This document shows positions 2,367 to 27,626 of a stretch of 45,538 bases of DNA, piece by piece (positions within the stretch are counted from its first letter, which is position 1; each line of letters opens with the position of its first letter). The notes beneath the pieces were generated by a model, which saw only the letters and a program-made list of their open reading frames with translations, was not told the DNA's origin and did no database searches. Source of the stretch: an archaeon GW2011_AR19 (GTDB lineage: Archaea > Nanobdellota > Nanobdellia > Pacearchaeales > GW2011-AR1). The stretch spans positions 1 to 45,538 of the forward strand of contig JWKY01000012.1 of assembly GCA_000806015.1 (NCBI GenBank). Direction: 5' to 3'. A program made the translations under genes and the position numbers.

Positions 2367-2449
2367 TAAAATATACCTACTTTGGGTATAAAATTTACCG
2401 AAAAGTTTATAAGGATTAAAATATACCCAATTTGGGTATAAAATTTACC
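2365..2449 (+). promoter_or_regulatory. two 35-bp direct repeats 50 bp apart with a 19-bp palindrome
   Basis: The sequence attaaaatatac-N4-tttgggtata-aaatttacc occurs at 2365-2399 and 2415-2449. The second copy has a perfect 9-bp dyad around one base (TATACCCAA T TTGGGTATA, 2422-2440); in the first the left arm is degenerate. The dyad lies between a TATA-like AT-rich box and the ATG at 2450, where a repressor could block transcription of the downstream gene pair. Confidence 0.6.
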
Positions 2450-2878
2450 ATGACCTCAATAGGAGAGCACAAAAAAAAGATAAAAGAGCATTTAGAAGAA
2501 ATAGAAGACGCTATAGATGAAGGAATAGAAAAAAAGCCCATAACTATCGGATTTCATTGTTCCGCATGTTCCATCCAGTTTTTAGAATTATATCTGCATG
2601 TCATAAATAAGATTTCTATCGGGAAAATCGTTAAACACGATTGGTTTAAAAAACCAAAACCGGAACAAAAAAAAGAACCTTTAATAGAGCGAAAACTTAA
2701 TGTTAATTTTTCTAAAAAACAAGAGATTTATGATTTAATTTATAAAATAGAAGAAGAGAGAAATATCCTGATGTACGGCAAGCCGGTTAAAAATCAGATA
2801 AAAGAAATATTAAATAATTTTCTAAAATTAAAAGAAACTTTTTTTGGTTTATTTAAAAATGAAAATGTTAAAATCTAA
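2450..2878 (+). CDS. HEPN-like partner of an MNT nucleotidyltransferase (putative)
   Basis: A 142-aa, mostly helical, lysine-rich protein. The first helix is rich in Glu and Ile (HLEEIEDAIDEGIEKK), followed by FHCSACSIQFLELYLHVINK, which resembles the helix packing of HEPN proteins paired with small nucleotidyltransferases. I chose the ATG at 2450, directly after the palindromic operator, rather than the TTG at 2432, which lies inside the palindrome. It overlaps the next gene by about 20 bases, as toxin-antitoxin pairs often do. The HEPN assignment comes mainly from context and size; no RxxxxH motif is seen. Confidence 0.6.
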   Translation: MTSIGEHKKKIKEHLEEIEDAIDEGIEKKPITIGFHCSACSIQFLELYLHVINKISIGKIVKHDWFKKPKPEQKKEPLIERKLNVNFSKKQEIYDLIYKIEEERNILMYGKPVKNQIKEILNNFLKLKETFFGLFKNENVKI

Positions 2879-3473
2879 AGACTTAATCGCTTATGCATCA
2901 TCTTTTGTTTCATTTATTTTGTCAAAGATTAAGGCAAAAGAGATTATTTTATTTGGGTCTGCAGCAAGAGGAGAGGCAGGCAAAGAAAGCGATATTGATT
3001 TATTTGTAAATGTTGAAAATAATGAAAAAGAGATTAAAAAAACAATTAATAAAGAAATTAATAAATTCTATAAATCAAAAATTGCAGATGCTTGGATTTT
3101 AAAAGGAATAAAAAATCCTCTTGCAGTTAAAGTAGGAAATCTTGATAAATGGAAATTAAAAAGGAGCATTATAAGTGAAGGAATAGTTCTGTATGGAAGA
3201 TATAAAGAGAGTCCTGAAAAAATGAGAGGCTTTAGCTATTTTAATTTATCTTCAATAAAAAATATTGCAAAAAGAAATTTTATACTGAGAAAATTATTCG
3301 GCAGGAAAGAAAAGGGTTATTCTGCAGAAGGGCTTCTTAAAAAGACAAATGGAAAAAAATTATCAAGTTTATCTTTTGTAATTCCAATAGAGCATACTCA
3401 AGAGACCATAAATTTATTGAACGCTAATAAAATTGATTATAAATTTTTTGAATTTTGGAGTGATCAAATTTAA
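2859..3473 (+). CDS. MNT-type nucleotidyltransferase domain protein
   Basis: About 205 aa. The N-terminal domain has the polymerase-beta-fold signature ILFGSAARGEAGKESDIDLF, that is GSxxxG followed by DxD. The C-terminal half (after IVLYGRYKES) is basic and ends with a stretch around SSLSFVIPIEHTQETINLL that may be a helix-turn-helix. MNT proteins usually act as antitoxins that AMPylate or otherwise inactivate a HEPN RNase. Start ATG could be 2859 or 2865. Its 3' end overlaps the convergent E1-like gene by 4 bases. Confidence 0.75.
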   Translation: MKMLKSKDLIAYASSFVSFILSKIKAKEIILFGSAARGEAGKESDIDLFVNVENNEKEIKKTINKEINKFYKSKIADAWILKGIKNPLAVKVGNLDKWKLKRSIISEGIVLYGRYKESPEKMRGFSYFNLSSIKNIAKRNFILRKLFGRKEKGYSAEGLLKKTNGKKLSSLSFVIPIEHTQETINLLNANKIDYKFFEFWSDQI

Positions 3474-4480
3474 AATTCTCTCCATTCAACTCTTAAATCC
3501 ATAAAATCTATTTCTGCAAATCTATTAGTGTTTATTCTTCCTTTTCCTGTGAGATATTTGAAAATCTCCATTGTTTGAATATTTGCAACTGCTCCGGCAA
3601 TTGGTCCAAGATTTCCTGTTTGTTTGATATCTCTTATTTTTTCTAAATCTTTTAAAGGGTCCATTCTTTTTTGATATTCTATAAAATCATCAAATGTTTT
3701 AGTAATTCCTGGAATGATAATTGGACCAACCATTCCTAAATGTAAATTATACCCTCCAGCAACACAATAAGCAATTCCGTGCTGCGCAGCATATTGGTCA
3801 ATAATTCTTGTTGTTTCTGTAACTGATGGAGAATCGGCGCAATTTACTAAAAAATTACAGCCAGAAATAATATCTTCAAGATTTTGGTTTAATTCTATTC
3901 TTTTTTTAAAAGGTAAAATTTTTGCATCTTTTAATTTTTCTTTTATAACATCAACTTTATACTTGCCAACATCACCAGAATCAAAAAATAATTGTCTGTT
4001 CAAATTGCTTTCATTCACAATATCGGGGTCAGTAATTCTTATTTCTCCCGCGCCAATTTGATATAAGCCATTTACAATCCAGGTTCCGATTCCGCCAACA
4101 CCAAAAACTGCAATTTTAGAATTTTTTATTTTTCTTTGCAGTTCTAAAGTTTCTTTTCTTGAATCAGTTAGTTCATCTAAAAATAATAATTGTCTATGAT
4201 TTCTGTCTTCTTTTAAATCTTCTTCATATTTTCTTATTATTCCTTCTTTTTCTAATGCTTGCAAGCATAAATTTATATCCCGAATATTATAATCTTTAGA
4301 TAGTCTTTCAATTAAATCTTGTTCTGAAGATTCTGAGTCAAGAAATTTAATCACATTTTTAACTAAAGAGTCTACTTGAAACTTTTTCACTTTTCGGGTT
4401 GCAGTGGAAATAAAAACATAATTATCCTCAGCATCTTTTAAGATATATAAAGAATCTTTAATTTTCAGTTTCTGCGTCAT
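3470..4480 (-). CDS. E1/ThiF-like adenylating enzyme with N-terminal RiPP recognition domain
   Basis: A 336-aa protein. Residues 1-85 resemble a PqqD-like/RRE peptide clamp (IKDSLYILKDAEDNYVFIS, then helices to LEKEGIIRKYEED). Residues about 110-336 are a ThiF/MccB-type E1 domain: GVGGIG nucleotide-binding loop (127-132), DPD (151-153), NLNRQ (159-163) and GKYK (172-175). The paired CxxC zinc motifs of many E1 enzymes are absent. Family members adenylate a peptide C-terminus or a side-chain carboxylate (MccB in microcin C7, PaaA in pantocin). Here it is third in an operon with a 49-aa peptide gene and a Tiki/TraB-like gene and overlaps the latter by 23 bases, so the peptide is the likely substrate (inference). 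Confidence 0.8.
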   Translation of the reverse strand: MTQKLKIKDSLYILKDAEDNYVFISTATRKVKKFQVDSLVKNVIKFLDSESSEQDLIERLSKDYNIRDINLCLQALEKEGIIRKYEEDLKEDRNHRQLLFLDELTDSRKETLELQRKIKNSKIAVFGVGGIGTWIVNGLYQIGAGEIRITDPDIVNESNLNRQLFFDSGDVGKYKVDVIKEKLKDAKILPFKKRIELNQNLEDIISGCNFLVNCADSPSVTETTRIIDQYAAQHGIAYCVAGGYNLHLGMVGPIIIPGITKTFDDFIEYQKRMDPLKDLEKIRDIKQTGNLGPIAGAVANIQTMEIFKYLTGKGRINTNRFAEIDFMDLRVEWREF

Positions 4481-5051
4481 TTGAAATTATCTCTCCATAT
4501 TTAATTTTCTTATCTTTTTGTGGAGCAAACATAACTTTTCCTTTATCATCTATGGGAGCAATAATCTTATAATTTTTTAATTTTTTTCTTAATAAAGAAT
4601 CTTCCCTTAAATGCCAGCATCCAATAATAATTATAATTGGTTTATTTGTTTTTTCTTTACATTCTAAGATTTTAGAGAGGTGGTATTTTTCTCTTTTCTT
4701 AATTATTTCATTTAATTTTCTTTCCTCTTCTTTTGTAAGTTCTTTTTGATTTTTAATTTTTTTTTGCAAATAATCATCAAATCCAAAATTATGGAAATCT
4801 ATTCCGATTAGATTAATTTTGTTTTCAAAACACAATTTTATTAGTTTTTCAACATCATTAAAAGAGGTCATATTAGAAATATCTCTCTTTTTTAGAATTT
4901 CCTTAAACTTATCTTCTGTATCTAATTTTAAATTTTCTAATTCTTCACTTAATACAAATTCTGGTTTTATTAATTCTATAATTTCTTTTTGCTTTAAAAA
5001 ATCATTTACAAAAGAATGAGTGTTGCCTATAAAAATAAAAGAAAAGTCCAT
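4458..5051 (-). CDS. Tiki/TraB/ChaN-like protein, putative RiPP maturation enzyme
   Basis: About 197 aa with two GxxH-type motifs, one at the N-terminus (FIFIGNTHSF) and one near the C-terminus (IIIIGCWHLRED), with acidic and Arg residues between (LSEEL, GIDFHNF, REKYHLSK). This pattern recalls the TraB/PrgY, Tiki and EreA/ChaN superfamily, whose members include metal-dependent proteases and esterases. No signal peptide or membrane helix is seen, so it is probably cytoplasmic. The frame could start at TTG 5069, but ATG 5051 is more likely. It sits between the peptide gene (stop 5071) and the E1-like gene, which suggests leader cleavage or product inactivation. The family call is by motif only. 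Confidence 0.55.
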   Translation of the reverse strand: MDFSFIFIGNTHSFVNDFLKQKEIIELIKPEFVLSEELENLKLDTEDKFKEILKKRDISNMTSFNDVEKLIKLCFENKINLIGIDFHNFGFDDYLQKKIKNQKELTKEEERKLNEIIKKREKYHLSKILECKEKTNKPIIIIIGCWHLREDSLLRKKLKNYKIIAPIDDKGKVMFAPQKDKKIKYGEIISNDAETEN

Positions 5052-5070
5052 TTTATATTCCAAAGACAAA

Positions 5071-5220
5071 TTACATCCAATATTTAATATTTGTTGGGCC
5101 CATATAAGCGCTCTCTTCTACTTTTAGGAGTCCTTTATAAAGAGGTTTTTCCACAAGTAAAAGTTTTGCTTCTTTTGTCTTTAGTTCAACTTTTTTCAAA
5201 ACTTTCTCAAGTTGTTCCAT
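5071..5220 (-). CDS. putative RiPP precursor peptide A (49 aa)
   Basis: The peptide starts MEQLEKVLKK and ends YMGPTNIKYWM. The N-terminal part is lysine/glutamate-rich and amphipathic, as expected for a leader; the last about 15 residues (GPTN, KYWM) differ in composition and are the probable core. Residues 1-10 match precursor B at 18570 in 8 of 10 positions, and the DNA upstream is almost the same. It is first in a minus-strand operon with a Tiki/TraB-like protein and an RRE-containing E1-like enzyme. A TATA-like box lies about 25 nt upstream of the ATG, so the transcript is probably leaderless. No other peptide of this kind is known to me in archaea. Confidence 0.7.
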   Translation of the reverse strand: MEQLEKVLKKVELKTKEAKLLLVEKPLYKGLLKVEESAYMGPTNIKYWM

Positions 5221-5275
5221 GCTTTTTTAATGTATAACTTCTATTTAAGCTTTTTGATTGTAGTTATTTTATAAT
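5221..5275 (-). promoter_or_regulatory. promoter of RiPP-like locus A
   Basis: On the minus strand a TTAAATA box (5242-5248) lies about 25 nt from the ATG at 5220, the usual distance from an archaeal TATA box to the transcription start. The 26 nt at 5223-5248 are identical to 18755-18780 upstream of precursor B, at the same 2-nt spacing from the ATG. Similarity continues weakly about 25 nt further upstream. Confidence 0.7.
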
Positions 5276-5286
5276 TAAAACACTTT

Positions 5287-7767
5287 TCATTCAAAACTTT
5301 CAAAAGCTCTTACAATAATACTGCACTGTCCGGGAAGAGGCTGATTTCCAAATTCATCTTTGCATTTAATGAAATATTTTTTGTTTGCCTGCCATGAAGT
5401 GTAGTGAATTGACTCTCCGATTTCATTCATTGCAGTTCCGTCTGCAAAATTATAAGTGCATCCAAGATTTGTTTGAGAAGTATAAACGCATTGCGCAGGC
5501 TCGTCGGTTATAACTTTTAAATTATTCACGTCGTAATATGCTCTCGCGACTACTGGCGCTTCTCTGTCTGTAACAAGAGTAAATTTTATATTTCCTTCAT
5601 CGCTATTTAATCCAGCATCAAAGCATCTTATGCTGTAATTATAAAATCCTTCAGAAAGAGGAATTCTCTGAGTATTTACATTTACAAAACCTGAACTTCC
5701 CTCATTATAAAAATCAATCCAGTTTCCTCCAAACTCGTATTGACATATTGATTTTCCATTGTCTGCTCCAAATTTAGCTTTTGCTTCCAGTTTTACATTT
5801 ATAGTTGAAACAGAATCTTTTATTGTCGCTCCACTTTGTTTTCCATTGATAGTTATTTCATCCAATACTAACGGCTCTGTTCCCTGAAGTTTTAAAACAT
5901 GTGATTGTTCATTTGCATATCTTGCTCCTTTGTCTGTAGATGTCCACCATGGCTTGTCATTACATCTTATATATACTTTATTTTCAACTCTGTCTTTCAT
6001 GCCTTCTAACTTCCCAAGACATCCATAACTGAATGGCGGAAACATATAATCTCCTTCTGTTTGTGAACATTGATTCATTTCAAATTGCATTGCATCATAA
6101 TTTAAATCTTCAAAACTCCATTTGCATTCGGCAGGTTCATTTGTATATATTTGCAAATTTGCTTCAGACTGATTGTATTGCAAAAATTTTCCTTCAAGAT
6201 TAGTTCCCAAAATTACTGGCGGGAATGCATCCGGTCCGTCCTGAACGCAGAATTCCATAATATACTCGTCTACATTTGAGATTCCATTTGCGCTTTCACA
6301 TCTTATAAAAAATTCTTGATTCTGGCCATTTGTAATTTGAGTTATAGGAATTCCCGATGCTGTTTGGCTTTCTACACTCGGAGCTGCAACATGCGGAAGT
6401 TTTAATATATGTTCATTTTCAAATCCTTCAAAGCTAGTCATTGAAGCAATCATCTCTTCATAACTTGAAGTTCTCTCTGTATCTATTTTACAATCTGCAT
6501 ATTTAGTTGTATTAATTCCAAGAGTAACTGAAGAGTAAGGGAGAATACATCCATTGGAAGAAGAATCTTTTGTATAAAATATTTTGACTCCTGTAACTAC
6601 TCCCGACAATGGTCTGTATTCATAATCAGCTGAAGGCAAAACTTTCTCTAAAGCAGTAATTTTCGGAGGGAAAATATCATCAGGATCTTTCCAGACGCAC
6701 ACTTCCTGAACACTGCCCGGATTTACTATTTCACATCCTTTTCCAAAACTCCTGCATTGATATTCAGTGCATCCAAATTCTAATTCATTACATAAATCAC
6801 AATCACCCCCTCCAACATCAGGCTCCCATGCTTCAACAAGATAATTGAAAACTTCTTTTGAATAATTTTCAAATGAAGCTAAAGTGATAAATAGTGCAAC
6901 TACGAGTGCGACAATTAATCCAATTCCGAAAGTTCCAATTCCTAAAAGAGTGCCCCCGGTAGCGATCGTAGCTCCAGTAGCAACAGTAGCGCCAAGAGCA
7001 GTAGATGTTCCAACCGCAACGCCAGCAGCAGTGCCGGCAGCAAAACCTATAGCTGAAGCAGTTGATGCGCTCCTCATATTTCTTACATCTGCTCCTACAA
7101 TCCATTTAAAAATTGCCCAATTTATCGCAGCTCCGAGAGCTGAGCCTGCCGCTGAAATTGCAAGTTGTCCTCCAAAAGTCTTGCTTAATGCTCTCTTTGC
7201 TACTTCCTCTCCTACCTTTTCCGTTGTCTTTCCTGAAAGTTTTAATATTTCTTTTCCAAAAAGTTTCACTTCCCCAGTATTAATCAATTCAGTTACTTTA
7301 GAGGCCACAATACCGCCCCCTGTAGTTAAAAGCCAATTATTTACTTTATTTTTCCCCTTATCACTAAGCTCATCCTTTCCAGTCTCATTTTTTTTAGTAT
7401 CGTCTTCGTCCAATAATTCTTTGTTTATGATCTTGCCTTCACTATCTCTAATTACATAATATTTTTTTCCGTCTATTGTTTCAACCTTTCCAGTTACTTT
7501 TTCTTCTTTATCTTCACCCGGGGTTGTTTGTGTAGTGATTGGAGGGATTTCTTCTCTATTGATTTCTGCCCAATAAGCACCTTCTCCTTGGGATAAATTT
7601 GCATTCTGCCCGCTCACAATTCCCACACCTCTCGCAATTTCAATTCCTTGAGATTTTCCGATTTCTCCAATCATGAAACTAAATGCAAAAATTCCAATTA
7701 ATAAAATTAATATTTGTGTTAAACCTAAAGTTTTATTTAATTTCATATTTCCTCTTTTAATTTTCAT
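5287..7767 (-). CDS. large membrane-anchored cell-surface protein, unknown function
   Basis: An 826-aa protein. It has an N-terminal hydrophobic helix (ILILLIGIFAFSFMIG), a Thr/Asp/Lys-rich linker, a long glycine/alanine-rich hydrophobic block (residues about 195-315, with GLIVALVVALFITLA) that probably spans or inserts in the membrane, and an approximately 500-residue outer part with scattered cysteines. Within the latter a motif like EPAECKWSF / EPAQCVYTS recurs, suggesting repeated Ig-like or cysteine-bridged domains. ATG 7767 gives MKIKRGNMK; the ATG at 7746 (MKLNKTLG) is equally possible. It is probably the last gene of a surface locus with the genes at 12136 and 9873. No family recognised. 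Confidence 0.75.
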   Translation of the reverse strand: MKIKRGNMKLNKTLGLTQILILLIGIFAFSFMIGEIGKSQGIEIARGVGIVSGQNANLSQGEGAYWAEINREEIPPITTQTTPGEDKEEKVTGKVETIDGKKYYVIRDSEGKIINKELLDEDDTKKNETGKDELSDKGKNKVNNWLLTTGGGIVASKVTELINTGEVKLFGKEILKLSGKTTEKVGEEVAKRALSKTFGGQLAISAAGSALGAAINWAIFKWIVGADVRNMRSASTASAIGFAAGTAAGVAVGTSTALGATVATGATIATGGTLLGIGTFGIGLIVALVVALFITLASFENYSKEVFNYLVEAWEPDVGGGDCDLCNELEFGCTEYQCRSFGKGCEIVNPGSVQEVCVWKDPDDIFPPKITALEKVLPSADYEYRPLSGVVTGVKIFYTKDSSSNGCILPYSSVTLGINTTKYADCKIDTERTSSYEEMIASMTSFEGFENEHILKLPHVAAPSVESQTASGIPITQITNGQNQEFFIRCESANGISNVDEYIMEFCVQDGPDAFPPVILGTNLEGKFLQYNQSEANLQIYTNEPAECKWSFEDLNYDAMQFEMNQCSQTEGDYMFPPFSYGCLGKLEGMKDRVENKVYIRCNDKPWWTSTDKGARYANEQSHVLKLQGTEPLVLDEITINGKQSGATIKDSVSTINVKLEAKAKFGADNGKSICQYEFGGNWIDFYNEGSSGFVNVNTQRIPLSEGFYNYSIRCFDAGLNSDEGNIKFTLVTDREAPVVARAYYDVNNLKVITDEPAQCVYTSQTNLGCTYNFADGTAMNEIGESIHYTSWQANKKYFIKCKDEFGNQPLPGQCSIIVRAFESFE

Positions 7768-8401: not shown

Positions 8402-8737
8402 TTAGTATTTTATTTCAATTCCTTCTTTTACAGCTTGCTGAACAATCCCTAATTGATTTATTCTTTTTTTAATTTCTTCTGGAGTATAACAAATAATATC
8501 TAAATTTTGTTTTTTGTCCCATAATCCATATGCTCTTGAAATTCTTTCCCTGAATTCAACACCCTGAAAATTTTCAGAGATTATTATTAAATCAACATCG
8601 CTTCCTTCTAAATGTTCCCCTCTCGCTCTGCTTCCAAATAATATAATTTTCTGCGGCTTAAATTTTTTTAAAAACTTTAAATGTTTTTTAATCAACTGAT
8701 ATGTTTTTTTATCTATTTTATTTGCTGTTTTATCCAT
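8402..8737 (-). CDS. MNT nucleotidyltransferase (antitoxin type)
   Basis: A 111-aa minimal nucleotidyltransferase with ILFGSRARGEHLEGSDVDLI (GSxxxG and DxD at about residues 37-52). The end QQAVKEGIEIK is the same as in the MNT at 12994. Minimal NTases of this kind pair with HEPN RNases and can neutralise them by modifying a tyrosine. It overlaps the upstream HEPN gene (8713-9093) by 25 bases and is cotranscribed with it. The pair is wedged between secreted-protein genes, consistent with insertion as a cassette. Confidence 0.85.
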   Translation of the reverse strand: MDKTANKIDKKTYQLIKKHLKFLKKFKPQKIILFGSRARGEHLEGSDVDLIIISENFQGVEFRERISRAYGLWDKKQNLDIICYTPEEIKKRINQLGIVQQAVKEGIEIKY

Positions 8738-9093
8738 TTTATTAATCTCCCGGATTTAATTAAATAATCTTGCGCTTTTCCTTTTGAATAAAGTTTGTAA
8801 GGTGCGTCTCCGGCAACATCAGGATACCTCGTTGTCACAAATTCAGGGGATAAATCTTGAAATATTCCAAAAAATCCAGAAGGAATTTTTGTTTCTTTTG
8901 CTAAATATATTAAAGAATGTGTTGGTCCTGCAGATTTGCCTTTTTTAATCATAAAAAAAGCTTTTAACGTTTTTTCAACACTTTGCTGGCAGAAAAAAGC
9001 TGAAACATAATACTCTTTAATCTTAAAATTTTTTTCAGCAACTTCAAAATCTTTTTCTGTCTGTTCCCATAAATTTTTAATTTCTTCTCTCAT
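8713..9093 (-). CDS. HEPN domain protein
   Basis: A 126-aa helical protein with the HEPN features MREEIKNLWEQTEKDFEVAEKN, then YYVSAFFCQQSVEKTLKAFF, then TRYPDVAGDAPYKLY. HEPN proteins paired with MNT genes are probable RNA-cleaving toxins. The start MREEI(K/R)N is the same as in the HEPN at 13290. The canonical Rx4-6H motif is not obvious; a TRYP segment takes a similar place in archaeal members. Confidence 0.85.
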   Translation of the reverse strand: MREEIKNLWEQTEKDFEVAEKNFKIKEYYVSAFFCQQSVEKTLKAFFMIKKGKSAGPTHSLIYLAKETKIPSGFFGIFQDLSPEFVTTRYPDVAGDAPYKLYSKGKAQDYLIKSGRLIKWIKQQIK

Positions 9094-12993: not shown

Positions 12994-13311
12994 TCATTTT
13001 ATTTCAATTCCTTCTTTTACAGCTTGCTGAACAATGGTTATTTTATTTTTTAATTTATTAAATTCATTGGTTGTTAAGCAAATAAAATCAACAGGATAAT
13101 CAAAATTCCAATCTTCATAAAAACCAATTCCTCTCTTAAATGACTTTTTTCTTTTAAAATTATCACTCACAACAATTAAATCAAAATCACTCCACGGATG
13201 TATTTTGCCTTTTGCTCTGCTTCCAAATAATATCAATTTTTTAATTGGAATTTTCTTTTGCAATTTTTCTTTAAATTCCTTGACAATGTTTATATCTTCT
13301 TTTTTAGCCAT
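12994..13311 (-). CDS. MNT nucleotidyltransferase (antitoxin type)
   Basis: A 105-aa minimal nucleotidyltransferase with LILFGSRAKGKIHPWSDFDL (GSxxxG, DxD), ending QQAVKEGIEIK as in the copy at 8402. It overlaps the upstream HEPN gene (13290-13664) by 22 bases. Downstream (about 12905-12945) is a second, displaced copy of the coding sequence for KEGIEIK without the rest of the gene, a scar of duplication or recombination. Confidence 0.85.
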   Translation of the reverse strand: MAKKEDINIVKEFKEKLQKKIPIKKLILFGSRAKGKIHPWSDFDLIVVSDNFKRKKSFKRGIGFYEDWNFDYPVDFICLTTNEFNKLKNKITIVQQAVKEGIEIK

Positions 13312-13664
13312 TCTAAAATCTCCTTAGCAATAAAAATAAATTCTAAAGCATCTTTTTCTTTAAATTTTTTATAAGGGGGTTCATTTTCTAAAATTCCATA
13401 TCTGGATTCTATATACACTTTTGAAAGCTTTTCACAATTTAACAATAAATTTTCCGGCAATCCTATTTTCCTGCCAAGAATTACTAAATCATGCATTTTA
13501 ATAAGTTTCTTTTCTTTTTTAATAATTAATGCTTTTAGTCCTTTTTCAGCTGCTTGCTGGCACATAAAAGCGCATAAATAATAATCTTCGCTTTTCAAAC
13601 TATTCTCCGCGCTTTTTAAATCCCTTTTTGCCTGCTCAATCCAATTTCTAATTTCTTCTCTCAT
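13290..13664 (-). CDS. HEPN domain protein
   Basis: A 124-aa helical protein: MREEIRNWIEQAKRDLKSAE, then YYLCAFMCQQAAEKGLKALI, then MHDLVILGRKIGLP and ESRYGILENEPPYKKF. This is the common archaeal HEPN layout. It is the probable toxin (RNase) of the pair with the MNT at 12994. It diverges well from the HEPN at 8713 beyond the shared core motifs, so the two pairs were probably acquired separately rather than copied in place. Confidence 0.85.
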   Translation of the reverse strand: MREEIRNWIEQAKRDLKSAENSLKSEDYYLCAFMCQQAAEKGLKALIIKKEKKLIKMHDLVILGRKIGLPENLLLNCEKLSKVYIESRYGILENEPPYKKFKEKDALEFIFIAKEILEWLKKKI

Positions 13665-13798: not shown

Positions 13799-15205
13799 TT
13801 ATTTTCTAAAAGTGTATTTTAGTCCGGTGTTTATTATAGAATGTCTTGGAGAATAAATGATTCCTCTTCTATACAGAGTTTCCATCTCCCTCTTTAAACC
13901 AATCAACCCGTCAAAAGAAAGGGAAAGATTCTTTTCATGACCATTTTCTTTAGAAAAAGGAAAAATTTCAATTCCAAGACCAAGATAGAAAGGTCCAAAG
14001 AATTTTTTTGTTTCCCAAGAGCTTTTTCTGATTTCAAATGAAGATTGTCCTTTAATTCCGTCTTTAATATAATATTCTTCTACATTATCAGTTGTTGTTA
14101 TTAGCATTTTTTGTCTTAAGAATCCAAAACTTGTAAACATTTCAAAAGCAGGAGAAACATAACCCATATTCAATCCAAGACGGACAGTATTCTTTGCTGA
14201 AATATTTAGGTGATAGAACATATCGGAAACGAAGTATTTACTACCACTATATCCAGCCACTTCATTTTCGTAATAATCTCTTCCAGAAACTTCAAAATCT
14301 ATTTTTGAATTCATAAAAAACATATCAAGATCCATTGCAAATCCTTTTCCTTTTTTATTTGTTATTTGTGGGCTTATTCCAAAATATGACCCAACATGCG
14401 AACTTTTAGTATTTAGCACAACTCCGCCCCCAATTTTTAATTTTGCTTTTGGTTTTCTGGCTTCTTGTTCTATTCTAATTTTCTCCTGCTTTTCATATTC
14501 TATTTTTCTAGCTTCTTCTTGTTCTTTTTTAATCTTCTCTCTTTCTGGCTTTTCCCCGATATAATTTTCAATTTTCTTAATCTCTTCTTCAGAAAGAAGT
14601 TTTTCTATAGGGGTTCTTGAATTCCCAGCAAGTCTTCCATCAGCCATTTTCAACCTATAAGAATATTCTTTTCTAACAAGTTCTTCTAATTGTCTTGAAT
14701 TAAATCTGCTGAATTCTTTTTGGACTGATGAAAATTCTTTTATTCTTTCAGAAAAACCCTCTCCAATCTGTTTTGCTTCTTTTTGGTCTATCCCATTATA
14801 ACTTTTGCTTATAATTTTGTCGCAATTATTAATTGACTCTCGGCAATAGTCGTAAATCTCTAAAACATAATCTATTTTTTTTGTATCAAAATTAAATGAA
14901 AATTTTTCTTGAGAGTTTATTGGAGAACCAATCTTTTGAACATTAATATAATCATAAACGCCGTCCTCATTTGTATCTCCATAATAAAACCAGATGTTGC
15001 CCTTGTTATTCTCTTTAGGTTCATTAGTTAACCATGCCAAGACATGTTTTTTAAATGCTGGATGACCAACATAATTTGCGTATTCTCCTGTTTCAAAATA
15101 AAAATTTAAATTTGGAAAAAGTTTTTCTTTTGAAGTTTGAGAGGCATCTTGGGCAAAAGATTTGTTTGTTGCTCCGAAAATTAAAATTATTATAATCTTG
15201 TCCAT
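13799..15205 (-). CDS. secreted protein with predicted outer-membrane-type beta-barrel
   Basis: A 468-aa protein. It has a short hydrophobic start (MDKIIIILIFGATNKSFAQ-DA) as signal peptide, an N-terminal domain with the calcium-loop-like DTNEDGVYD, a helical charged stretch (residues about 210-250), and a C-terminal half of about 220 residues of alternating strands: KLKIGGGVVLN, YFGISPQI, TVRLGLNMGYVSPAFEM, GPFYLGLGIEIFPFS, SLSFDGLIGL. It ends INTGLKYTFRK, much like the last strand of bacterial outer-membrane barrels. Bacteroidota proteins often show both this barrel type and signals ending in AQ. In an archaeon it would be unusual. The first half is duplicated at 1722-2366. An in-frame TGA just upstream supports the ATG at 15205. 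Confidence 0.65.
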   Translation of the reverse strand: MDKIIIILIFGATNKSFAQDASQTSKEKLFPNLNFYFETGEYANYVGHPAFKKHVLAWLTNEPKENNKGNIWFYYGDTNEDGVYDYINVQKIGSPINSQEKFSFNFDTKKIDYVLEIYDYCRESINNCDKIISKSYNGIDQKEAKQIGEGFSERIKEFSSVQKEFSRFNSRQLEELVRKEYSYRLKMADGRLAGNSRTPIEKLLSEEEIKKIENYIGEKPEREKIKKEQEEARKIEYEKQEKIRIEQEARKPKAKLKIGGGVVLNTKSSHVGSYFGISPQITNKKGKGFAMDLDMFFMNSKIDFEVSGRDYYENEVAGYSGSKYFVSDMFYHLNISAKNTVRLGLNMGYVSPAFEMFTSFGFLRQKMLITTTDNVEEYYIKDGIKGQSSFEIRKSSWETKKFFGPFYLGLGIEIFPFSKENGHEKNLSLSFDGLIGLKREMETLYRRGIIYSPRHSIINTGLKYTFRK

Positions 15206-15498: not shown

Positions 15499-16050
15499 TT
15501 AATGTATTAATACGTCTTTTTTATTGAAATTTACTTTGAAATTATCAAAAAGCTCATCAAAAATCTTTTCAGAATTTAAAGGTGAGATAAAAACCTGATT
15601 AGCTACCCATTTTCCGTTATTGCTTTCAACAATTCCTTTTTCGCCTCTTTTTCCTCTTAAAATATTCACTAATCTTACTTTATTTGAAGGAGAAAGCGAA
15701 GTAAGAACATAGTTATACATTACTTTATTTGAAAACCTAAAATTCTCAGAAATAAATTTTTTGTTCTTTAAGCTGTATCCTTCTCTTATTAAAGTATGAA
15801 TAATAGATGGAGAATTAATAAAAAATTCTTTAGCAGTAATTACGCTTATATGAAAACCTTTTATTGAATTTATTTTTTCAAGAAACTCCTTTGAAGGCTT
15901 TTCGTATAATATCGCTGCAATGTCTACATCTCCTGGAATTAATTTTCCTTTTATAGCAGATCCAAACAGAATAATATCAATTACCTTTTTATCTGAAAAA
16001 AGATTTTTTAGCTTATTCTTTATTAATGAAAGATTTAAGATAGCGGGCAT
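15499..16050 (-). CDS. MNT nucleotidyltransferase with extra C-terminal domain
   Basis: A 183-aa protein. The N-terminal NTase motif is IILFGSAIKGKLIPGDVDIA, with the GSxxxG loop and a DVD metal site. The C-terminal half (from about residue 95) has YNYVLTSLSPSNKVRLVNIL, a probable winged-helix or helical DNA-binding segment, and ends in a Lys/Asp-rich tail. The same architecture occurs in the MNT at 2859, so the two may belong to one subfamily. It overlaps the upstream helical gene by 38 bases. Confidence 0.75.
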   Translation of the reverse strand: MPAILNLSLIKNKLKNLFSDKKVIDIILFGSAIKGKLIPGDVDIAAILYEKPSKEFLEKINSIKGFHISVITAKEFFINSPSIIHTLIREGYSLKNKKFISENFRFSNKVMYNYVLTSLSPSNKVRLVNILRGKRGEKGIVESNNGKWVANQVFISPLNSEKIFDELFDNFKVNFNKKDVLIH

Positions 16051-16342
16051 ATTCTCTTATTTTTATTGTATCCTCCTTTTTTATTTTAAAATTATAGGAT
16101 TTGACATAAATTTGGAATAATTCAGAAACTTTAGAGTAAATTTCTTTAAAATGCCTGCTTAATAAAGAAAATCTTTGAGAATGATTTTTTGGAAAGATTT
16201 TTATTTTTGAATAAATGAGATAATCGCATGTCACAACAATTGCCTTAAAAAAATCAGTTGCAGAGGCATTAAATCTTTCTTTTTTTAAGTTATCCTCTCC
16301 AGAATCTAAAAATTCATTTATATTCTCAATAATCTCTTCCAT
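16013..16342 (-). CDS. helical HEPN-like partner of the MNT at 15499
   Basis: A 109-aa all-helical protein (MEEIIENINEFLDSGEDNLKKERF, then ASATDFFKAIVVTCDYLIYS, NHSQRFSLLSRHFKEIYSKV). Size, helix pattern and overlap with an MNT gene fit a HEPN-type or HEPN-like toxin. The overlap and order match the other MNT pairs of the window. A RHFKEIY segment could be the catalytic site, but this is speculative. Confidence 0.6.
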   Translation of the reverse strand: MEEIIENINEFLDSGEDNLKKERFNASATDFFKAIVVTCDYLIYSKIKIFPKNHSQRFSLLSRHFKEIYSKVSELFQIYVKSYNFKIKKEDTIKIREYARYLKSFINKE

Positions 16343-16519: not shown

Positions 16520-17263
16520 ATGAAATTTGATTTTAAATTAGCGCCTATTAAATACGATGTTGAAAAAATATATCATTTTTTAAACCCTGATGAAGAAGAT
16601 TGGAATTGGAGCAGATATATTAAAAATTGTTATTCTGAATTAAACAAAATGGATTCAAAAGAAAAAATTAAAAAAATTTTAATAAAGGTTAGAGAAGAAA
16701 ATAAAAAAAAGTTACAAGATAAATTATTTAATTATAAAAAAGAATTTGAAAAAATTTCTAATAAAATTATTTCTGAATTTAAGGAAATTTTAGAGATAAA
16801 TGCGATTAAAACCCATAAAATAGATATTCTAATCTCATTAAGCCCAATAAATCCTTATAATTTAGAAAAAAAAGAATTTTCAGTGTATTGGAATTTTCCA
16901 ATTAAAGATATGATTGCTATTTCTATACATGAGATTTTTCATTTTATTTATTTTGAAAAATGGAGGGAAATTTTTCCGAAAACAACTATTAAAGATTTTG
17001 AACCTCCAAGTTTAATTTGGCATTTAAGTGAATTGGTTGTTCCAGCAGCATTAAATGATAAAAAAATTCAAAATGTTTTTAAATATCTTCATAGAACTTA
17101 TGAGGAATACACTAAACGAAGAATAAATAAAAAAAGTATAAATAAAAAAAGTATAAATGAAATTATCTTAGATTTATATAGTAAAAAAAGGCCTTTCTCA
17201 TTATTTATAAAAGAAGCGTATAATTTTGTATTAAAACATGAAAAAGAGATTCAAAAGGTTTAA
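16520..17263 (+). CDS. HExxH metallopeptidase-like protein next to RiPP-like locus B
   Basis: A 247-aa protein with no signal peptide. The motif SIHEIFHFIYFEKW (about residues 136-149) is a zinc-protease HExxH. Downstream WHLSELVVPAAL supplies a possible third ligand (Glu). The C-terminus has a short tandem repeat (INKKSINKKSIN, from an 18-bp DNA duplication near 17121-17156). The rest is lysine-rich and helical. It converges on the radical SAM gene, overlapping its end by 4 bases. If it is part of locus B, it could cleave the leader or act on the product; this is inference from position only. No closer family recognised. Confidence 0.6.
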   Translation: MKFDFKLAPIKYDVEKIYHFLNPDEEDWNWSRYIKNCYSELNKMDSKEKIKKILIKVREENKKKLQDKLFNYKKEFEKISNKIISEFKEILEINAIKTHKIDILISLSPINPYNLEKKEFSVYWNFPIKDMIAISIHEIFHFIYFEKWREIFPKTTIKDFEPPSLIWHLSELVVPAALNDKKIQNVFKYLHRTYEEYTKRRINKKSINKKSINEIILDLYSKKRPFSLFIKEAYNFVLKHEKEIQKV

Positions 17264-18555
17264 TTTCTAAAAAAATAAGAACACATCCAAGAATCCGGGG
17301 CATTGATAGAATCATTAAAAAATAAAGATTTTGCTTTACATCCTCCAGCGCAGACATTTAATACTTTACAATCTTTACATTCCGAGCTGGAGATATATTC
17401 TTTTTTTCTAAAATAATTGAGTAATAGAGAATTTTCCCAAATATTCGTTAATGATTTTTGCTTAACATTTCCAAGAATATATTTTCCAAAGTTTAACATG
17501 GGACAAAGAGATACAGAGCCGTCACTTCCTAAATAAAAGAAACTTTCCCCTAATCCACAATAGCTATTTATCTTTCTTTTTTGACCCTCGGGAGTTTTAA
17601 TAAATAATTCTCCATCAAATACTTTTTCATATAATCTTGAAATTTTTTTCATTGCCCCCATTTTATCTCTTAAATTATAAGTAGGAATTTGAACGCCTCT
17701 TCCCTCTGGAACTATTTCATCAAAAGAAATATCATTTTTATCCATCCCTAAATATTTAAGATAAATCAATGTATTTTTTATTGAATCATAAGAATCATTT
17801 ATGTCTTTAAATAAAACTATATTTGCCCTTGTTCTTATTCCTTGTTTTAACATTTCTTCTAAATTATCTAAAACTTTTTTATTGTCTGTTTTTCTTATCT
17901 TTTTATATTCTTCTGGATTGACAGAATCTATACTCACTGCCACAAATTCTGGATTAAGCAAGGATAATTCTTTTATATGTTCTTTTTCCATTAAAATCCC
18001 ATTTGTAAAAATACTAAAATCTATCATAGAAGAGTATGTTTCTTTGAGAATATCAAATAAGTCATTTTTTATAAAAGGCTCTCCCCCAGTTATTCTAATT
18101 TTTAATGCTCCTAATTTTTTAATTTCTGAGATTAAATCAAAAATATTCTCTTTTTGCAATTCTTTTGTTTTAGTCTGAGGATTATAACAATGAATACAAT
18201 TGAGATTACATTTTTTTGTTATCTCAAAAAACACCGAATCTAAAGAATATACGGAATTATCTTTATTTATAATTCTTAATTTACTTTTTTCATCTTTTGC
18301 AGAGTATTTTATAATGCCTTTTTTGTTTAATTTTTCAATTATGTTGAGAGTCTTTTCTAGAATCTCGGCTTTATTATTCTTAATATTATTTGAAATTTCT
18401 TCTATCGTCTTTTTTCCATCACATTTTTTTAATATTTCTGTAAGATCTTGATTGCAAATTATATGCTTTTTAGAAATTAAATCATATAAAATAGAACCAG
18501 AACGAGTTAATTTAAGTATGCTCCTTTCTAAATAAGGTCTTTCATTTATTTCCAT
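17260..18555 (-). CDS. radical SAM/SPASM peptide-modifying enzyme with PqqD-like domain
   Basis: A 431-aa protein in three parts. Residues about 19-86 form a PqqD/RRE-like helical domain (IEEISNNI, EKLNKKGIIKYS) that binds a leader peptide. The radical SAM core has CNLNCIHC (C116, C120, C123) and the SAM-binding GGEP (157-160). The SPASM domain has seven cysteines in the classic order: C333, C351, C393, C396, C402, C406, C425. Such enzymes introduce thioether or carbon-carbon crosslinks in sactipeptides, ranthipeptides and related RiPPs. The gene follows a Cys-rich 60-aa peptide gene by 14 bases on the same strand, its probable substrate. Confidence 0.85.
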   Translation of the reverse strand: MEINERPYLERSILKLTRSGSILYDLISKKHIICNQDLTEILKKCDGKKTIEEISNNIKNNKAEILEKTLNIIEKLNKKGIIKYSAKDEKSKLRIINKDNSVYSLDSVFFEITKKCNLNCIHCYNPQTKTKELQKENIFDLISEIKKLGALKIRITGGEPFIKNDLFDILKETYSSMIDFSIFTNGILMEKEHIKELSLLNPEFVAVSIDSVNPEEYKKIRKTDNKKVLDNLEEMLKQGIRTRANIVLFKDINDSYDSIKNTLIYLKYLGMDKNDISFDEIVPEGRGVQIPTYNLRDKMGAMKKISRLYEKVFDGELFIKTPEGQKRKINSYCGLGESFFYLGSDGSVSLCPMLNFGKYILGNVKQKSLTNIWENSLLLNYFRKKEYISSSECKDCKVLNVCAGGCKAKSLFFNDSINAPDSWMCSYFFRN

Positions 18556-18569
18556 GTTGATTCTTAAAT

Positions 18570-18752
18570 CTATAATTTATACTTAGAATCAACCTCTATT
18601 GAGATATATTCTACTGATGAATAACGCTCTGGTGGAGGGCATGCTCCAGGTGTAGCGCAAGCGCATCTACATCTCATTGAGACCAAATTGTCTTCAACAA
18701 TTTCAAAAACAGGTTCAAACTTTTTCTCCAAAGCTTTTTCAAGTTGTTCCAT
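18570..18752 (-). CDS. putative RiPP precursor peptide B (60 aa, Cys-rich core)
   Basis: The peptide starts MEQLEKALEKK, nearly the same as precursor A at 5071. An acidic leader (FEPVFEIVEDN) follows, then the core MRCRCACATPGACPPPERY with four cysteines close together, and a tail YISIEVDSKYKL. Closely spaced cysteines with a radical SAM/SPASM enzyme 14 bases downstream fit a thioether-crosslinked RiPP (sactipeptide or ranthipeptide type), but the exact chemistry cannot be read from sequence. A TATA-like box about 25 nt before the ATG predicts a leaderless transcript. The tail beyond the core might be removed or be a second, follower part. Confidence 0.8.
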   Translation of the reverse strand: MEQLEKALEKKFEPVFEIVEDNLVSMRCRCACATPGACPPPERYSSVEYISIEVDSKYKL

Positions 18753-18805
18753 ATTTTTTTAATGTATAACTTCTATTTAAATCTTTTGGTTGTTACTATT
18801 TTAGA
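18753..18805 (-). promoter_or_regulatory. promoter of RiPP-like locus B
   Basis: On the minus strand TTTAAATA lies about 25 nt from the ATG at 18752. The 26 nt at 18755-18780 are identical to 5223-5248 of locus A, with the same spacing to the start. AT-rich similarity extends upstream (CAAAAG and AAAATA blocks). Confidence 0.7.
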
Positions 18806-18874
18806 ATTATTAATCTTTTCAGTGAAATTGCTCGTCGGATTTTTTTAATAATTAATTACTTTCGCACTAATCTT

Positions 18875-19010
18875 CTACTCGAACCGACACTCAAAATATT
18901 TTTTACTAATGCTCAATTTAAGTTTGTTTCCGTGTCAGTCCTCTACTCGAACCGACACTCAAAATATTTTTTACTAATGCTCAATTTAAGTTTGTTTCCG
19001 TGTCAGTCCT
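18875..19010. repeat. 68-bp tandem duplication, two copies, overlapping the end of pcna
   Basis: The unit from ctactcgaaccgacactc to gtgtcagtcct occurs at 18875-18942 and again, identically, at 18943-19010. The second copy contains the stop codon of pcna (19003-19005). Identity of the copies suggests a recent event or an active slippage site. It contains gaaccgacac and gtgtcag, a weak inverted repeat that may act as a transcription end for pcna. Confidence 0.85.
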
Positions 19011-25916: not shown

Positions 25917-27626
25917 CTATTTTTTATTTTTCTGCTCCCCATAAGCATCTTCAACATCCTTAATATCTGTAATTTCAGAAAGAGGTTTATCTGGACGCAA
26001 AACATTCACCCTTGGAAAACGTAGAGCATATCCTGAAGAATAATTAGTGGATTTTTGAATTTCCTGATAAGTCACTGCAACAATTATTTTAGGTTTAACC
26101 TGAACAGTGGTTCCTTTTTCATCTATAATTAAAGGTTTTAATTGCTTGGTCAATTCTTTAAATGTTATTTTTCCTTCTTCTTCTTTTTCATTTATTCCTG
26201 TTCCAACTTTTCCAATTTCTAAATATTCATCTTTTTTATCTCCCATGCAGGATAAAATAAAACTTGAAAACCAACCGGCTCTTTTTCCTGCCCCATATTC
26301 GGCGCCTGTAATCACTAAATCAAAATCTCTAAGCTCTTCTTTTAATTTCAGCATATATCCGACACGGCTTCCGGGCTTGTACGGCGCATTTAAATTTTTT
26401 AAAATCAAACCTTCCTGATTATTTTTTATCGCTTTTTTATAAAATTCTCTTACTTTTGAAACATTATTTGTTATAAGCTGGTCAGCAGTTGTTATTTTGT
26501 ATTTTTCGCTTTTAATAATTTTTTTTAGCAATTCTGAACGCTGTTTAAAAGGAGAATTAATTAAATCTTCGTCGTTGAAGAGAACTATGTCAAATGCTTT
26601 TACTTCTACAGGCAATTCTTTTACAAGTCTGTCAATTTCATATTTTCTTCTGATTCTCTGACTTATTGCCTGAAAAGGCATATATCTTTTTGTTTTTGGA
26701 TTATATCCGATAATTTCTGAATCTATTATGCAGGATTTTGCTTTGATATTTTTTTCAACAACTTCAACAATATCTGGAAATTGTTTTGTCACATTTTCAA
26801 GTCTTCTTGTATAAAGAGCAACTAAATCATCTTTTTTATTTATCAGCATCCTGAATCCGTCGTATTTGTATTCTGCCGCCAAATATTCCCCGCATTTTTC
26901 AAATCCGTCTTCTATTGACAAAGCTTTTTGCGCAAGCATTACTTTTATTGGCTTGTCAGTTTTAAGAGAAACTTTTTCTAATTGTTCAATGCCTTTCTTG
27001 GATAATTCAAAAATAATTGCAAGGTCAGAAAGTTTGTCATACGCGTTTTGAATTTTTTCAGAAGCTTGTTTTCTTGCATCGCCGGGAAAAAATGCGCTTG
27101 CCAGCGCCTCTCTTATTGTGCTGGATTTTATTCCAATCCTTAAATCTCCGATTAATGTTCTTGTTAAATATTTTGCTTCAAGCGGAGAGGCAGAAGCAAG
27201 CAATTCAGTTATTAACAGCAATTTTAACGAGACTGTCCCCTTTCCTTCAAGTTCGGGAAGTTTTCGCAGATTTCCTAATACTTTCTGAATTGTTAATTTG
27301 CTAGTGAATTTAAGAGTGGTCTGTTTTTTTTGCTTGGAAAGTTCTTCAGCAACTTTTCCGAGATCCCCTATTTTTTTCCACATCTCCAAAACTTTTGAAT
27401 CAGTTGCTCCACTGGATTTTGAAATCGCTTTGAGCGCGATCTGAGTAGAAATTCCAATTTCTTTTTCATTGCCCTCAGGATGAATTCTCCCCATTAAAAG
27501 ATACATTACATCTTTATCTTCATCAGAAAGTTCTTTTAAGAATTTTGATAAAATTTCTGTTTTTTCAAGACGTTTCGTTGTGCTTTCAATCTGTTTGTAA
27601 AGTTCTGCAAGTTCTTGATATAACAT
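25917..27626 (-). CDS. lig: ATP-dependent DNA ligase
   Basis: A 569-aa protein of archaeal Lig1-like length. The N-terminal DNA-binding domain is residues about 1-220 (MYLLMGRIHP, IGDLRIGIKSSTIREAL). The adenylation core has motif I EYKYDGFRM with lysine 254, followed by the other nucleotidyltransferase motifs (SEIIGYNPKTK, EGLILKNL, WLKLK-like YMLKLKEEL) and the OB-fold end. It seals nicks in replication and repair with ATP, and is held by PCNA. It stands alone on the minus strand. Confidence 0.95.
   Translation of the reverse strand: MLYQELAELYKQIESTTKRLEKTEILSKFLKELSDEDKDVMYLLMGRIHPEGNEKEIGISTQIALKAISKSSGATDSKVLEMWKKIGDLGKVAEELSKQKKQTTLKFTSKLTIQKVLGNLRKLPELEGKGTVSLKLLLITELLASASPLEAKYLTRTLIGDLRIGIKSSTIREALASAFFPGDARKQASEKIQNAYDKLSDLAIIFELSKKGIEQLEKVSLKTDKPIKVMLAQKALSIEDGFEKCGEYLAAEYKYDGFRMLINKKDDLVALYTRRLENVTKQFPDIVEVVEKNIKAKSCIIDSEIIGYNPKTKRYMPFQAISQRIRRKYEIDRLVKELPVEVKAFDIVLFNDEDLINSPFKQRSELLKKIIKSEKYKITTADQLITNNVSKVREFYKKAIKNNQEGLILKNLNAPYKPGSRVGYMLKLKEELRDFDLVITGAEYGAGKRAGWFSSFILSCMGDKKDEYLEIGKVGTGINEKEEEGKITFKELTKQLKPLIIDEKGTTVQVKPKIIVAVTYQEIQKSTNYSSGYALRFPRVNVLRPDKPLSEITDIKDVEDAYGEQKNKK

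Follow-up and report, generated by a model that had tools for sequence, protein, structure and literature searches.

A Cys-rich peptide gene beside a radical SAM/SPASM enzyme gene shares its promoter region and leader start with a second precursor, a member of an apparently undescribed ThiF-type family of DPANN archaea

DPANN archaea have tiny genomes and are often attached to their hosts. In one of them, GW2011_AR19, we have analysed a stretch of 45,538 nucleotides (contig JWKY01000012.1, hereafter the window), whose minus strand carries a short gene for a Cys-rich peptide followed almost directly by the gene of a radical SAM/SPASM enzyme. The features of this locus are:

18570-18752, minus strand: predicted Cys-rich precursor peptide of 60 aa, with an ATG start, the leader start MEQLEKALEKK and CRCACATPGAC within its core
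18753-18832, minus strand: promoter region before the Cys peptide, duplicated ahead of both precursors described here
17260-18555, minus strand: radical SAM/SPASM enzyme of 431 aa with a PqqD-like N-terminal domain, a probable peptide maturase (motifs; Pfam, NCBIfam and PDB matches)
16520-17263, plus strand: HExxH (HEIFH) protein, convergent with the radical SAM gene and, from its motif, a candidate zincin peptidase with an uncertain link to the pair

The original prediction, made from the bare sequence, described a Cys-rich 60-aa peptide gene located 14 bases before the enzyme gene, with a leader-like acidic N-terminus and four clustered Cys, and the analysis bears out this description. The peptide (MEQLEKALEKKFEPVFEIVEDNLVSMRCRCACATPGACPPPERYSSVEYISIEVDSKYKL) is encoded on the minus strand and a spacer of 14 bases (18556-18569) separates its ORF from that of the enzyme, residues 1-26 include seven acidic and three basic ones, and the core holds four Cys inside 12 residues, together with ERY and EY pairs, while the C-terminal half is rich in Y, S, V, E and I. 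Among ORFs of 30-100 aa, 0.23 with four Cys in 12 residues are expected per Markov-resampled window; two were observed among the 106 in the window, the other one being antisense to the gene at 5287-7767. Read by eye, the list of window ORFs showed no recognisable transporter next to the pair.

All the motifs claimed for the enzyme were located in the 431-aa protein. Besides Cys 34 and 45, it contains the CxxxCxxC site (residues 116-123, with Cys 116, 120 and 123), the GGEP motif (157-160) and the full seven-Cys SPASM pattern in the order Cys 333, 351, 393, 396, 402, 406 and 425, in agreement with the Pfam matches to Radical_SAM (5.6e-27) and SPASM (1.4e-11). The PqqD-like domain that had also been proposed stands in part. 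When the N-terminal 101 residues are searched alone, PqqD families rank at the top of both libraries, in Pfam (PqqD 0.0018, followed by PaaA-like_N at 0.0036) and in NCBIfam (the four best matches, 0.0069-0.024), but every match is weak and under its curated cut-off. Against the PDB, the same residues returned PPR and other chance matches and no PqqD structure, and a single-sequence structure model of the enzyme was unusable (pLDDT 31).

The assignment of this enzyme to a known class is less direct. The sactipeptide and ranthipeptide maturase families StsB, AlbA and PapB are among its 25 best-scoring NCBIfam models, with StsB in first place, but their scores of 113.7, 72.8 and 69.5 bits lie far under the curated cut-offs of 625, 850 and 340, and the mycofactocin enzyme MftC (111.9), the heme d1 enzyme NirJ2 (110.9) and PqqE (96.2) score so similarly that these models fail to separate peptide from non-peptide SPASM families in this case. 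The only PDB match that covers most of the protein is 5wgg (residues 50-420, 3.3e-10), ranked below shorter matches to MoaA and viperin, an entry titled 'Radical SAM domain protein' which we take to be CteB, the thioether-forming maturase of the SCIFF ranthipeptides. Both proteins combine a radical SAM and a SPASM domain with an N-terminal extension; however, the E-value is modest, the two precursors are not homologous and the peptide described here has four Cys instead of the six of SCIFF. The original prediction saw in the pair a standard sactipeptide/ranthipeptide layout. Its reading as a RiPP precursor with its maturase is well supported by the layout, the motifs, the PqqD-like N-terminus and a leader start common with a conserved precursor family (see below), but the subclass label is unproven: the enzyme reaches the curated cut-off of no sactipeptide maturase model in NCBIfam, and neither the PapB score nor the number of Cys matches the ranthipeptides. 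Because the curated models are not reached, we file the pair under neither name.

The peptide/enzyme pair is an orphan among the genomes searched. Enzyme matches at E 1e-15 or better occur in 28 of 181 genomes of the family, where the best relative other than the enzyme itself (8.6e-32, 30% identity) aligns over residues 108-422 only, and seven of 371 genomes of the phylum, its own included, have a match passing 1e-25. Single-sequence scans of the genome contig and viral contig collections revealed no close relative, and the 51 viral loci found with a radical SAM profile are all distant; in a search of plasmids, the 399 records all showed less than 60% identity. For the peptide, no relatives were found in the 181 family genomes (19 have a match passing E 0.5, the best outside its own locus at 0.0059). 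A likeness to the DNA ligase at 25917-27626 of the same genome (E 0.0059, 29% over 51 residues) was judged to be due to chance because the match crosses the ligase interior and retains one of the four Cys.

An orthologous pair was likewise not found in the family and phylum genomes and the genome contigs. A comparable layout does occur in one family member (L004), in which a 57-aa ORF is spaced by 9 nt from the following gene, that of a radical SAM/SPASM enzyme with an N-terminal extension. That peptide has one Cys, and the N-terminus of the enzyme had no family match at E 10 in either Pfam or NCBIfam. A further likely peptide-maturation cassette occurs in a pair of genomes from the same class (L063 and L064): there, radical SAM/SPASM genes arranged in twos follow a short ORF with the shared ending DGGC[LM]IN[SG]N. 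At one more locus (L003:1163-2484), the gene of a stand-alone PqqD-family protein (WgkC model 2.8e-8, under its cut-off) and that of a radical SAM/SPASM enzyme overlap by 4 nt.

The promoter region and the first eight codons of the Cys peptide gene recur 13 kb away in the window, ahead of a gene for a 49-aa peptide that opens a second cassette (3470-5220), outside the coordinates of the peptide/enzyme pair:

5221-5300, minus strand: promoter region ahead of the second precursor gene, a paralogue of 18753-18832
5071-5220, minus strand: predicted second precursor of 49 aa, MEQLEKVLKK...GPTNIKYWM (promoter/leader match; conserved family)
4458-5051, minus strand: TraB/TIKI-like protein, a candidate peptidase of 197 aa from its ATG (Pfam TraB_PrgY_gumN 0.0031, under the cut-off)
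3470-4480, minus strand: ThiF/E1-type adenylyltransferase of 336 aa with an N-terminal RRE-like domain (Pfam ThiF 1.9e-39; PDB profile; model)

With blastn, the region before the Cys peptide gives one strong match in the window, 80-81% identical over 105-112 nt. Genome-wide this match has an E-value of 8.1e-24, and the next-best site (2.5e-7) covers the upstream part only. Identity is highest around the start codon: it amounts to 22/24 in codons 1-8 before dropping to 4/12 in codons 9-12, and in successive blocks of 20 nt outward from the ATG it is 18/20, 16/20 and 14/20. At the protein level, the Cys peptide ranks first of 702 short ORFs against a profile of the second precursor family, above 2000 of 2000 shuffles, by virtue of residues 1-11 alone. 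Homology over the whole length was rejected, since it fails past residue 11 and 1596 of 3000 shuffles score at least as well as residues 12-60. A scan of nine genomes with the leader DNA pattern, limited to ORFs that have an ATG start and at least 20 aa, found that the ORFs under 110 aa starting with it are precursors of this family, the Cys peptide and a single ORF of 24 aa; family precursors with other starts escape the pattern. As far as sequences can tell, the promoter and leader held in common with the second precursor are the decisive evidence that the Cys peptide gene is not a product of chance.

Two sets of repeats were observed in the window. The segments 1728-2368 and 14549-15189 are 89% identical over 641 nt, and because this repeat is collinear with both copies of the promoter/leader region (5184-5295 and 18713-18827), it suggests a larger and old segmental duplication, whose interior would since have been replaced. 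Just upstream of the Cys-peptide promoter (18871-19006), a 68-nt sequence is directly repeated in tandem, with 99% identity between its two copies, and the repeat overlaps the 19003-19737 gene at its 3′ end. The window also encodes four pairs of a nucleotidyltransferase and a small protein (2432-3473, 8402-9093, 12994-13664 and 15499-16342), some members of which are mutually similar. They look like MNT/HEPN toxin-antitoxin modules, judging from the Pfam match of 2844-3470 to NTP_transf_2 (1.6e-12) and an MntA match of 15499-16050 under its cut-off; the small proteins are presumably of the HEPN kind.

The second precursor (MEQLEKVLKKVELKTKEAKLLLVEKPLYKGLLKVEESAYMGPTNIKYWM), followed in order by the TraB-like protein and the ThiF/E1 enzyme, belongs to a family of ten distinct precursors from Pacearchaeota, Woesearchaeota and Nanoarchaeota. 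They are 44-55 aa long, start mostly with M-E-x-L-E-K/R, and all ten end in T-x-I-x-Y-W-M, the final residue being Met: nine finish in IKYWM and the remaining one (G106) in IMYWM, and the pair of residues that reads T-N in the window is T-S in nine of ten. Nine of the ten were included in the precursor alignment. A neighbouring E1 gene was seen for nine of the ten precursors; in one genome (G084) the E1 is interrupted by stops, and in another (G043) the precursor and a partial E1 lie on different contigs. One relative (G173, L060:8168-9103) has a gene for a 311-aa protein, without a family found in Pfam or NCBIfam, that overlaps the precursor and precedes the TraB-like gene.

The distribution of the E1 enzyme is patchy. 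Thirteen of the 181 family genomes have a match at 1e-8, eight of them (the window included) below 1e-80, and the cassette is absent from both other genomes of the genus; in the phylum, 26 of 371 genomes pass 1e-20, with five strong matches, one of these outside the family. A scan of the genome contigs gave 30 loci, 22 with distant E1s and eight strong ones, the latter all labelled Pacearchaeota, Woesearchaeota or Nanoarchaeota. In viral contigs, a single-sequence search found one distant E1 (E 8e-5) and a profile search no ThiF-family copy, and the C-terminal pattern occurs in 12 stretches, of which four end an ORF and none resembles a precursor.

Searched as a profile against the PDB, the ThiF enzyme matches first MccB (2e-26) and then PaaA (3.3e-25). 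A structure model built from eight sequences (pLDDT 83.8) has an N-terminus of four strands followed by three helices. MccB can be superposed on residues 3-336 of the model (315 aligned, Z 26.9, rmsd 4.8) and PaaA on residues 8-336 (303 aligned, Z 24.5, rmsd 4.0), whereas MoeB and ThiF align with it only from about residue 88-89. As modelled, the enzyme is of the peptide-activating kind, with the fold of MccB and PaaA including their leader-binding domain. A profile comparison with hhalign does not support homology between the N-terminal domains of the ThiF and radical SAM enzymes.

These features bring the second cassette close to the TLAT RiPPs, represented by MccB (microcin C), PaaA (pantocin), GrcB, EnfB (enterofaecin) and IndF, with which it has in common a ThiF fold fused, according to the model, to an N-terminal RRE over the full length, and an adjacent precursor with a conserved C-terminus. 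Known ThiF-type RiPP enzymes activate the precursor C-terminus to yield a phosphoramidate, thiolactone, imide or indolylamide, and in several of these systems the conserved precursor ends are aromatic or hydrophobic, such as WWIVI and NWYFI (PMC12250964, PMC12150305). By analogy, TxIxYWM would fit this aromatic pattern. The cassette differs from the known TLAT systems in being archaeal, in its T-x-I-x-Y-W-M end and in the TraB-like protein between precursor and enzyme, and its precursors are unlike the short, Asn-ending MccA type of microcin C. We found no report of ThiF-type RiPPs from archaea in the open-access literature searched; the TLAT review does not mention archaea (PMC12250964), and the IndF mining list consists of bacterial proteins (PMC12150305). 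The cassette represents a conserved, apparently undescribed archaeal ThiF-type peptide family.

With regard to the leader peptidase, the TraB-like ORF, which has an alternative TTG start at 5069, shows invariant G, TH, E, D and GxxHLR residues in an alignment of seven loci, and matched nothing in the PDB at E 1. The HEIFH protein at 16520-17263, for which no Pfam family was found, resembles (pairwise E 0.003) a HEIMH protein encoded directly before the precursor of another family member (G132). TraB-family and zincin proteins have been proposed as leader peptidases in graspetide loci (PMC8939145). Those are ATP-grasp systems, unlike the cassettes described here, and the homology of the TraB-like and HExxH proteins is weak; by this analogy, both would be candidates for leader removal and no more.

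These sequences would best be read as follows: a RiPP precursor, the Cys peptide, has been built on a promoter and a leader start borrowed from a ThiF-type precursor, and has been passed to a radical SAM enzyme. The pair is real, of RiPP type and probably functional, and we hold with reasonable confidence the following explanation of it as a small operon. A predicted promoter of archaeal type would drive the gene of the 60-aa peptide, leaving a very short 5′ UTR, and the acidic N-terminus of the peptide (MEQLEKALEKK...) would act as the leader, to which the PqqD-like domain would bind. The enzyme would then modify the Cys-rich core, most likely through thioether cross-links from Cys to residues of the C-terminal half, and a peptidase, perhaps the TraB-like or the HExxH protein, would cut off the leader; export of the product and a biological role for it are presumed. 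The Cys peptide itself would have arisen by reuse of the promoter and leader start of the conserved precursor 13 kb away.

Thioether cross-linking is probably the chemistry involved: four packed core Cys beside a SPASM enzyme are the usual setting for it, and the single near-full-length PDB match is the thioether-forming CteB. A Cys-first peptide with an acceptor-rich C-terminal half also resembles the sactipeptide hairpins. The packed Cys and the CteB match weigh against a carbon-carbon or other cross-link, such as a PqqE-like Glu-Tyr bond, a cyclophane or a mycofactocin-like step, which would leave the Cys for disulfides or metal binding. We see this as a real but lesser possibility, encouraged by the closeness of the MftC, NirJ2 and PqqE scores to that of StsB and by the ERY and EY pairs of the core. 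The comparable scores of heme and cofactor-route models, together with the lack of conservation of the pair in the other genomes searched, would also agree with a small metal-binding or structural protein beside an enzyme that acts on a cofactor or another protein; the PqqD-like N-terminus, and a promoter and leader start that come from a conserved family of peptide precursors, make this improbable. That the ORF is a chance one, or a decayed and functionless copy of the second precursor, is very hard to believe: the remainder of the peptide is unrelated to that family and homologues were not found, but promoter and start are intact, short ORFs this rich in Cys seldom arise by chance, and 14 nt separate the end of the ORF from a probable maturase gene.

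A bolder and doubtful extension of our preferred reading, that of a RiPP precursor with a borrowed leader start, would make one combinatorial system of both cassettes, with two precursors co-made from a common promoter and leader for two chemically unrelated leader-binding enzymes, and the Cys peptide perhaps a substrate of each. It is a similarly long shot that a radical SAM cross-link would come first and ThiF activation at the C-terminus second, giving a hybrid RiPP class not yet seen in archaea. The Cys peptide does end in KYKL, comparable to KYWM, a likeness noted after the fact (the ending KYx[LM] occurs in 17 of 100,000 shuffles).

The suggestion that such RiPP loci would be new or rare in DPANN archaea proved too strong. 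A 2025 antiSMASH survey of archaeal genomes lists ranthipeptide and sactipeptide clusters among the RiPP clusters found across superphyla including DPANN, and its count for Nanoarchaeota is 221 clusters of every type (PMC12144867). Moreover, one relative (L056:12074-15999) encodes, at a distance of some 6 kb from one of the KYWM cassettes, an HxsB maturase of the His-Xaa-Ser system above its cut-off (475.6 bits against 370), together with an HxsC-like enzyme below its own. From the sequences compared, the more interesting result appears to be that the Cys peptide pair descends in part from a family of ThiF-type RiPPs conserved in archaea. Such a family, conserved and patchily distributed, with a radical SAM offshoot that shares its leader, would provide a defined and synthesizable set of peptides, would show the transfer of a leader between unrelated maturation chemistries, and would bear on how DPANN archaea signal to or attack others.
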